From an uncultured Pelagibacteraceae bacterium (lineage in GTDB: Bacteria > Pseudomonadota > Alphaproteobacteria > Pelagibacterales > Pelagibacteraceae): 64,000 bases of DNA. Below the pieces are notes generated by a model, which saw only the letters and a program-made list of their open reading frames with translations, was not told where the DNA came from and ran no database searches. A program made the position numbers and the translations under genes. Below, piece after piece: positions 61,519 through 64,000 of this stretch (position 1 is its first letter; each line of letters starts with the position of its first letter). The DNA lies in NCBI GenBank assembly GCA_902516625.1, contig CABXYU010000002.1, positions 26,411-90,410 on the forward strand, given 5' to 3'.

Positions 61519-62160
61519 GATACAATAACAAACTTATTAAGAATTAAAGAAGAAATAAACTTAAAAAATTTGCAAAAATTAAAAATTATTGCAGTGAGTA
61601 AAACTTTTGGGGAAGAAAAAATATTACCACTAGTTAATTCTGGTCATATTGATTTTGGTGAGAATAAAGTTCAAGAAGCGGTGTTAAAATGGTCAGATAT
61701 AAAAGATAAATTTAAAGATGTTAAGCTCCATATGCTTGGAAAACTTCAATCAAATAAAGTTAAACATGCCATCAAAATTTTTGATTATATACATTCGTTA
61801 GATAATTATAAGCTTGCTGAAAAAATATCGATTGAACAAAAAAATCTTAATAAAAATCTTAAATATTTTATTCAAGTAAATATTGGAAATGAGCATCAGA
61901 AAAATGGAGTTAGTCAAAATGAGGTCAAAAACTTCCTGGAAGAATGTAAAAATGATTTGAAATTAGATGTAATCGGTTTGATGTGTATTCCCCCTAATGA
62001 TGAGAAATCAAAAAATTATTTTTCTAAGATGTTCAAAATTAAAGAGGAATTAAATTTAAAGGATCTAAGTATGGGTATGTCTAATGATTATTTAGATGCT
62101 ATAAATTGTGGATCTACAATGATAAGGATAGGTTCAAAAATTTTTGGTAAAAGAAGTTAA
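61513..62160 (+). CDS. YggS-family pyridoxal-phosphate homeostasis protein
   Basis: KIIAVSKTFGEEKILPLVNSGHIDFGENKVQEAVLKW, HMLGKLQSNKVKHAI, IHSLDNYKLAEKI, VNIGNEHQKNGV, LSMGMSNDYLDAINCGSTMIRIGSKIFG; start set at ATGCATGATACA. Confidence 0.93.
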   Translation: MHDTITNLLRIKEEINLKNLQKLKIIAVSKTFGEEKILPLVNSGHIDFGENKVQEAVLKWSDIKDKFKDVKLHMLGKLQSNKVKHAIKIFDYIHSLDNYKLAEKISIEQKNLNKNLKYFIQVNIGNEHQKNGVSQNEVKNFLEECKNDLKLDVIGLMCIPPNDEKSKNYFSKMFKIKEELNLKDLSMGMSNDYLDAINCGSTMIRIGSKIFGKRS

Positions 62161-62651
62161 AAAATTTTTATTTTTGTTTTTGTATTTATAATTTTTAACA
62201 TAATTAAAAAATCTTTCATTTTTAGTGCTATACATCCTTCCGTTGGTTTGTAGTTTTTCGTAAGATGGATGAATATACAGCTTCCTTTGCCCAAAGTTCT
62301 TTTATCAAAATTATATTTTATAGGTATCAAAAGATCGTATATCTGATCTGATCTAAATAATTTCTCGTGCTTAATTTCTTTTTTTGAGCTAATTAATTTA
62401 TTATATTTTTCTTTATTATTAATATCATCACACCAACCCATTGTTTTTTTAATTTTTACTTTATTTAGTTTTGAAATTAAATTTTTAATTCTATCCGCAC
62501 GATAATATAATTTTTCTATCCCAAATGTTCCTTTTGGGGTCTTTTTATCACCTTCTTTTTTATTACTTGTGACTCCATTTTTTCCGATAGCACATCTAAA
62601 ATAAAATTCATCAACCTGAAGAGTATGTTTATTTTTAAGATAAATTAACAT
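62157..62651 (-). CDS. L,D-transpeptidase (YkuD) family protein
   Basis: CAIGKNGVTSNKKEGDKKTPKGTFGIEKLYYR, SCIFIHLTKNYKPTEGCIALKMKDFL. Confidence 0.9.
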   Translation of the reverse strand: MLIYLKNKHTLQVDEFYFRCAIGKNGVTSNKKEGDKKTPKGTFGIEKLYYRADRIKNLISKLNKVKIKKTMGWCDDINNKEKYNKLISSKKEIKHEKLFRSDQIYDLLIPIKYNFDKRTLGKGSCIFIHLTKNYKPTEGCIALKMKDFLIMLKIINTKTKIKIF

Positions 62652-62664
62652 ATTCTATCTTACA

Positions 62665-63228
62665 ATGAATCATCAAAATCTTATAATCTATAATTTTCCA
62701 ATAATTTACGAAATTTTATCTGAGGTTGAAAATCATTTAAATTTTAAATTAATAAATATCAATCAAGAGGAATTTATTAATTTTGAGGAAAAGGATTACA
62801 AAAATTTCATTTTTTTAACAAAAAAAAAAGATTCAGATATAAGTAATCAATTTGTACTAAATGATCTACCAATTAAATTAATTGATTTAGTTGAAAACCT
62901 TAATGTTATGTTTTTAAAAATTAACTACCAAGGACAGTCAAATCAGATAATTAAAAACTATACGATAGATTTGAATTCAAAAAAATTTTTTAAGGAAGAC
63001 AAAAGCTTAAAGCTAACAGAAAAAGAAATTGGAACAATACTATACCTCGCAAAGCATCAGAAACCAGTAAGTATAAAAGAATTACAAATAAAAGTTTGGG
63101 ACCATAAATCAACACTTGAAACCCACACTGTTGAGACTCATATTCATAGATTAAGAAAAAAAATTAAAGAAAAATTTAATGATGCAAATTTTATAATAAG
63201 TTCAAAAAAAGGATATTTTATAAATTGA
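62665..63228 (+). CDS. OmpR-type winged-helix DNA-binding protein with degenerate N-terminal receiver-like domain
   Basis: SLKLTEKEIGTILYLAKHQKPVSIKELQIKVWDHKSTLETHTVETHIHRLRKKIKEKFNDANFIISSKKGYFIN. Confidence 0.88.
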   Translation: MNHQNLIIYNFPIIYEILSEVENHLNFKLININQEEFINFEEKDYKNFIFLTKKKDSDISNQFVLNDLPIKLIDLVENLNVMFLKINYQGQSNQIIKNYTIDLNSKKFFKEDKSLKLTEKEIGTILYLAKHQKPVSIKELQIKVWDHKSTLETHTVETHIHRLRKKIKEKFNDANFIISSKKGYFIN

Positions 63229-63365
63229 AAAAAAAGAATATTTTCGCAAGAGATCTATTTTCAAAAAAGTATAAACAAAGAGTAGTTAAACCCAAAAAAG
63301 GTAAAGGTAGTTTTTCTAGGAAAAAAAAATTAAAGTCTAGCTCCAATTTGTTGAATAACTTTTGA
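63225..63365 (+). CDS. arfA: ArfA-like alternative ribosome-rescue factor (46 aa, TTG start), not in supplied ORF track
   Basis: Hand translation: (M)KKKNIFARDLFSKKYKQRVVKPKKGKGSFSRKKKLKSSSNLLNNF*; matches the ArfA core LF..(R)QRV..KKGKGS(Y/F).RK. Confidence 0.75.
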   Translation: MKKKNIFARDLFSKKYKQRVVKPKKGKGSFSRKKKLKSSSNLLNNF

Positions 63366-64000
63366 CGCCATTTCAGTACCTTTTTTTAAACAATCTTCTT
63401 GTGAAAATTTCTTTAAATAACCATGAAGAAACCCTGCAGCAAAGAGGTCACCTGCACCGGTAAGATCTATAATTTTAAGGTTTTCTAAAACTTGAGCAGT
63501 CGTAACTTTGTCACCAAATATCGAAATAGCACCCTTGTCTCCTCTTGTAATAACTAATTGTTTTTTAATTTCTTTTCCAAATGCAATTACATCATCAAAT
63601 TTTTTTGCATTTATTAAGGACGAGATTTCCTGCTCATTAGCAAAAGTAATATCCAATTTATTTTTTACAAGTTCTAGAAAGTTTTCTTTATGCCTATCAA
63701 CACAAAATTTATCAGATAGTGACATTGCAACCTTCCTGGCACAATTGATAGCTTTATTAAAAGCTTTTTTTGGATCCCCCTCGTCCCATAAATATCCCTC
63801 AAGAAATATCATTTCACTTTGATTTATTGCTTCTTTATCAATATCATTTTCACTAATTTTTCCCGCTGTTCCAAGAAACGTGCACATTGTTCTTTCAGAA
63901 TCTGGTGTAACCAAGATTAAACAAGTTCCAGTAGGAAGGGCCTCTTTTTTTTTATTATAAAAATAAGTAACTTTTTCTTTTTTTAAACCATTTTCATATT
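63330..64000 (-). CDS. PfkB-family sugar/adenosine kinase, 5' end outside window (partial)
   Basis: Frame open to the window edge (YENGLKKEKVTYFYNKKKEALPTGTCLILVTPDSERTMCTFLG); IDLTGAGDLFAAGFLHGYLKK anion-hole motif. Confidence 0.93.
   Translation of the reverse strand, partial: YENGLKKEKVTYFYNKKKEALPTGTCLILVTPDSERTMCTFLGTAGKISENDIDKEAINQSEMIFLEGYLWDEGDPKKAFNKAINCARKVAMSLSDKFCVDRHKENFLELVKNKLDITFANEQEISSLINAKKFDDVIAFGKEIKKQLVITRGDKGAISIFGDKVTTAQVLENLKIIDLTGAGDLFAAGFLHGYLKKFSQEDCLKKGTEMASKVIQQIGARL

Follow-up and report, generated by a model that had tools for sequence, protein, structure and literature searches.

Among the described ribosome-rescue systems, the closest to the gene reported here is ArfA of E. 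coli (YhdL; Pfam PF03889). Its gene has 72 codons, encodes an N-terminal arm and a hydrophobic tail, and carries a hairpin in its coding region that makes the message nonstop. The gene lies downstream of the DNA-binding regulator gene zntR and is convergent with mscL, with an overlap of 4 bp. In E. coli ArfA the motif that corresponds to KPKKGKGSFS of the gene reported here occupies the empty mRNA tunnel, and proteins cut shorter than Asn47 are reported to be inactive (PMC5378476). In most alphaproteobacteria the same backup role is held by ArfB/YaeJ, a catalytic GGQ protein found in 2,022 of 2,376 alphaproteobacteria (85%; PMC11633108). ArfT of Francisella has about 40 aa and a basic tail (KKGGSTNKK), and its expression is not regulated by a nonstop message; in contrast to ArfA, it uses RF1 or RF2, has no exact KKGKGS and lies beyond detection by homology searches (PMC6299226). 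A survey of >15,000 genomes by Callan et al. 2024, which used DNA profiles, confined ArfA to the gammaproteobacteria, part of the betaproteobacteria and a small number of Bacillus, and reported arfA in 0 of 2,376 Alphaproteobacteria (PMC11633108). In the literature that we searched, the only ArfA related to SAR11 was gp30 of the pelagiphage HTVC027P (PMC12753301).

We analysed 64,000 nucleotides of a SAR11 genome (the window), near the end of which a frame of 46 codons at 63225-63365 on the forward strand runs from a TTG start to a TGA stop. Its translation, LKKKNIFARDLFSKKYKQRVVKPKKGKGSFSRKKKLKSSSNLLNNF, is identical to that given in the preliminary description, and we assigned it to ArfA from this translation, its match to PF03889, our SAR11 profile and its orthologues. 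The KPKKGKGSFS motif is encoded at 63288-63317 (forward strand). The TTG (63225-63227) is the sole ATG, GTG or TTG in this frame upstream of the conserved core, and it overlaps the TGA (63226-63228) of the upstream gene, so that start and stop share the TTGA at 63225-63228 on the forward strand. This upstream gene (62665-63228, forward strand, 187 aa) is OmpR-like: its C-terminal DNA-binding domain matches Trans_reg_C (PF00486, 46.6 bits), and no receiver domain was matched in it by Pfam. Downstream, a convergent gene for a PfkB-family carbohydrate kinase (63330-63998, reverse strand; PF00294, 119.9 bits) continues past the window end. As its frame ends at 63330, 36 bp of the 3′ end of arfA are antisense to it, and both overlaps are present as first described. 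A gene for a YkuD-type L,D-transpeptidase (62157-62651, reverse strand; PF03734, 51.3 bits) is divergent from the OmpR-like gene and belongs to the context only. No Rfam match was found in the last 3 kb of the window.

A search of the peptide against PF03889, proposed in the preliminary description, gave a match of 31 bits (E 1.7e-7), above the gathering cut-off of 25.5. The source genome contains one such match, and among 14 control genomes E. coli alone matched. A profile built from 22 SAR11 ArfA versions (A1) scored 69 bits for the window gene in the source genome and, when searched against the 177,635 sequences of the PDB, matched six distinct sequences, all of them ArfA (E 2e-7 to 5e-7). 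The alignment with these chains extends over 33 positions without a gap. The SAR11 protein shares with E. coli ArfA the tail KKGKGS(Y/F)xRK, the shorter form of which, KKGKGS(Y/F)xR, our searches partly select for. As the preliminary description had claimed, the hydrophobic tail is missing; the SAR11 stop comes soon after the basic tail. The peptide contains no GGQ and hence differs from ArfB, a short protein with a GGQ RF-1-type domain. No model in PHROGs or NCBIfam names the SAR11 protein, and the tiny gene is usually unannotated.

Furthermore, we searched for arfA in other members of the order. Exactly one match to PF03889 was found in 276 of 397 genomes, including 113 of the 151 that are at least 90% complete, and in 74 of the 101 genomes of the genus; in 168 of the 397 the match exceeded the curated cut-off. 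On contigs of named genomes 412 loci were confirmed, and the best 80 of these 412 all belonged to Pelagibacteraceae/Pelagibacterales, which places the source genome in the SAR11 family Pelagibacteraceae (Alphaproteobacteria). Outside SAR11, PF03889 matched in 7 of about 380 sampled alphaproteobacterial genomes, and a broader alphaproteobacterial profile (A2) matched in 25 of 385 genomes of the class, variants without GKGS included. Since most of the SAR11 family has ArfA, the published distribution map has to be redrawn, and the earlier premise of a mainly beta- and gammaproteobacterial factor is corrected. The ArfA family itself is known; what is new is a compact ArfA in a lineage for which the published survey reported none. 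Sporadic full homologues with C-terminal extensions, over or near the Pfam cut-off, were seen in other alphaproteobacteria (L266, L268-L270), and these also contradict the published absence of ArfA from the class.

We read out the locus in 142 distinct SAR11 loci. The gene has 33-46 codons (mode 35) and starts with ATG in 92, TTG in 36 and GTG in 14 of them. Directly upstream lies the OmpR-like gene in 134 loci, a methyltransferase gene in two, a photolyase-related gene in two and a contig end in four, and the convergent PfkB gene follows downstream in 123. In 125 of 136 loci the arfA start and the stop of the upstream gene overlap (66 at −4 and 19 at −1). The preliminary description had proposed that arfA is translationally coupled to the regulator. 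The frequent overlap and the nearly constant OmpR-like neighbour fit with coupling, but they are weak evidence for it, because overlaps are common in this genome (18 of the 41 same-strand neighbour pairs in the window). The data do not support a link with the regulator in particular, since overlaps are common and the overlap is retained where the upstream gene encodes a methyltransferase or a photolyase-related protein. The OmpR-like gene and arfA are probably co-transcribed. In one genus (g2; L289 and L040, genome G101), the gene order is OmpR-like gene, photolyase-related (DPRP) gene, arfA. The layout resembles that of E. coli, where arfA also follows a DNA-binding regulator gene and faces a convergent gene, although the neighbours zntR and mscL are not homologous to the OmpR-like and PfkB genes.

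Eleven SAR11 genomes, several of them complete, have no arfA; in these the OmpR-like gene abuts the PfkB gene with nothing in between. We considered whether a divergent ArfA is hidden at the usual site in the genomes that lack a match, and rejected this because the orthologous site is empty. SAR11 strains with and without arfA offer a comparison.

To assess selection on the frame, we compared 28 core codons in 139 unique sequences, which gave a pS of 0.67 (near saturation), a pN of 0.17 and a pN/pS of 0.25. The median dN/dS was 0.16, indicating purifying selection. Conservation of the KKGKGS frame across relatives, on which the preliminary description had staked its reading, was borne out: the motif is invariant at the protein level in all 139 cores, an invariance that partly reflects hit selection because the searches favour KKGKGS, and its glycines use all four codons, a synonymous variation which the searches do not affect. 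A lysine-rich frame could also arise by chance in an AT-rich genome. The composition of the peptide would agree with such an origin, and low-complexity filtering of lysine-rich ArfA peptides is probably the reason why tblastn against the phage collection returned no match. However, the frame is conserved as a single copy, is under purifying selection and occupies a fixed locus that is cleanly empty in genomes without the gene, and the SAR11 profile found no ArfA-like frame at E ≤ 1 among the 20,605 frames of a complete 1.31-Mb SAR11 genome without arfA. We regard a chance origin as next to impossible. All these comparisons argue strongly that 63225-63365 is a genuine, conserved and compact SAR11 arfA.

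The 36-bp antisense overlap had also been suggested as a source of the truncated mRNA that controls arfA elsewhere. This overlap is not conserved, as the arfA stop mostly lies no more than about 15 bp from the convergent stop. Moreover, no hairpin above shuffled sequences was found in 36 SAR11 arfA loci, where the mean z was near zero. The window gene gave a z of −0.1 over its whole length and positive values near its end, whereas in the same test the coding-region hairpin of E. coli arfA, our control, reached −28.1 kcal/mol and a z of −5.3. Terminator-like sites in or after arfA were present at 3 of 141 SAR11 loci, compared to one in shuffled sequences. With no structure around the SAR11 stop and a strong signal in the control, we rejected control by nonstop mRNA. 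The lack of such control agrees with the stop codon that follows soon after the basic tail; in this respect the SAR11 gene, with 33-46 codons and no hairpin, differs from E. coli arfA and resembles arfT, with which it also shares a small size and a basic tail.

Next we took stock of the other rescue factors in 50 genomes of the order, which were picked partly for having or lacking arfA and are not a random sample. Alpha-tmRNA was found in 48 and SmpB in 47 of them. Matches to PF00472 consisted of RF1- and RF2-sized frames, and no ArfB-sized PF00472 frame was present in any of the 50, in contrast to most alphaproteobacteria. The SAR11 family thus appears to have ArfA in place of ArfB. Because tmRNA, SmpB, RF1 and RF2 are present and ArfB was not found in these 50 genomes, ArfA is probably the sole known backup, and SAR11 members without arfA appear to depend on trans-translation alone. 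This suggests that a streamlined genome can trade the catalytic backup ArfB for an ArfA of 35 residues. In the source genome we found no tmRNA, SmpB or RF2, which means little for tmRNA and SmpB because that genome is 65% complete. An apparent frameshift, a single one within an A-rich stretch, breaks its RF1 gene (L437, G000:C1:88800-91500) in two and is probably due to an error in assembly or amplification.

We then compared the SAR11 protein with the features on which E. coli ArfA depends. The modal form has 35 aa that correspond to E. coli residues 10-44, and the N-terminal arm (residues 1-9) is missing, so that it is a natural minimal ArfA below the shortest functional E. coli truncation. 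In the RF2-contact patch formed by Leu19, Leu24 and Phe25 in E. coli, the SAR11 protein has Asp, Lys and Tyr or Phe, and Leu20 is invariant. The KKGKGS tunnel motif, Arg28 and an aromatic residue at position 25 are kept. In nine SAR11 RF2 sequences, from genomes with and without ArfA, Trp319, Phe217 and residues 213-217 (E. coli positions) are conserved.

From these sequence comparisons we consider it likely, with a probability of about 0.86, that SAR11 arfA acts as a nonstop-ribosome rescue factor, most likely together with RF2, and as the backup that replaces ArfB. On a ribosome that has stalled at the end of a nonstop mRNA, the basic protein of 33-46 residues would enter the A site, with its KKGKGS(F/Y)xR(K)n tail occupying the vacant mRNA channel. 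It would then position a release factor, most likely RF2, for hydrolysis of the peptidyl-tRNA without a stop codon. Translation of the gene itself would take place at the end of the OmpR-like message and stop at the gene's own stop codon, and its product would serve as the backup for which most alphaproteobacteria use ArfB. With the tunnel motif, Arg28 and the aromatic residue retained but residues 1-9, the part after residue 44, Leu19 and Leu24 missing or changed, we predict rescue activity as probable, and RF2 would be the most probable partner. These same losses, namely a modal form that ends at 44, the missing arm and the exchange of Leu19 and Leu24 for Asp and Lys, count against this predicted role, as does the fact that some complete SAR11 genomes have no arfA.

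The altered Leu19 and Leu24 might instead mean that the homologue rescues nonstop ribosomes through contacts other than those in E. coli, for instance by using both RF1 and RF2 in the manner of ArfT, and the similar size of the two proteins points in the same direction. We think this unlikely, though deserving of consideration: KKGKGS, Arg28 and the aromatic residue at position 25 are retained, and SAR11 RF2 keeps Trp319, Phe217 and 213-217, albeit also in genomes without ArfA. It is considerably less probable that the gene encodes an ArfA-derived basic peptide that binds ribosomes or RNA for some other function, for instance in hibernation or in controlling the message of the OmpR-like gene. 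Such a function would accommodate the shortened or missing ends that are functionally important in E. coli ArfA, and the close association with one regulator gene. Yet conservation is highest at the residues that occupy the mRNA tunnel, the frame is retained next to different upstream genes, and copies in phages have unrelated neighbours.

These phage copies, like the SAR11 genes predicted to serve in rescue, have the compact build, as seen in HTVC027P gp30 (PMC12753301) and in IMG/VR contigs. Marine-phage and SAR11 proteins share the pattern N(P/x)(I/V)A(K/R)(D/E)(L/V)(R/L)(T/S)PK(Y/F), followed by KPKKGKGS. In IMG/VR we found 202 candidates that encode ArfA relatives, many of them on marine virus contigs (L158-L237), and all six viral representatives that were tested exceeded the Pfam ArfA cut-off. 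In contrast to the SAR11 gene, the viral copies are surrounded by phage genes, and none of 80 viral loci contained the host OmpR or PfkB gene. On the T4-like contig L168 (3036-4685) ArfA is flanked by the clamp-loader gene gp44 on one side and by the next clamp-loader gene on the other. In two relatives of this contig, the Pelagibacter phages Mosig EXVC030M and HTVC008M, no ArfA was present in the regions read, and a 2OG-Fe(II) oxygenase gene takes its position instead. Viral contig L164 also encodes a terminase, and L214 a GroES. That phages carry arfA suggests a role for ribosome rescue in the infection of marine bacteria, and exchange of arfA between host and phage is plausible.

In addition, short basic proteins that resemble the N-terminal half of ArfA and have no GKGS were seen at L261-L264 and L321 (about 1460-1640), as well as at L311, L312 and L315-L320. 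They follow the pattern N(P/A)xA(K/R)xLRxPK(Y/F)(R/K)x(K/R)xVxxKK... and occur in a second family of the SAR11 order, in the SAR11 genome G103 and in other alphaproteobacteria. When their profile was compared with that of SAR11 ArfA, the probability was 97% over 27 columns, and they may be a sister group that recruits release factors. A wider reading, which we put forward only tentatively, is that SAR11 ArfA belongs to a compact ArfA branch shared by alphaproteobacteria and marine phages, and that it took over from ArfB in the most abundant bacteria of the ocean. This ArfA would not be held back by tmRNA, because its message contains a stop codon and lacks a hairpin, and phages may have swapped it with their hosts or exploited it, bringing their own copy into hosts, some of them arfA-less. 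The group without GKGS might then be a further recruiter family. When this variant was sought by synteny in other SAR11 genomes, G103 was the only one to have it; there a DPRP-like gene is located upstream of it, at a distance of a few genes (L321 and L342).
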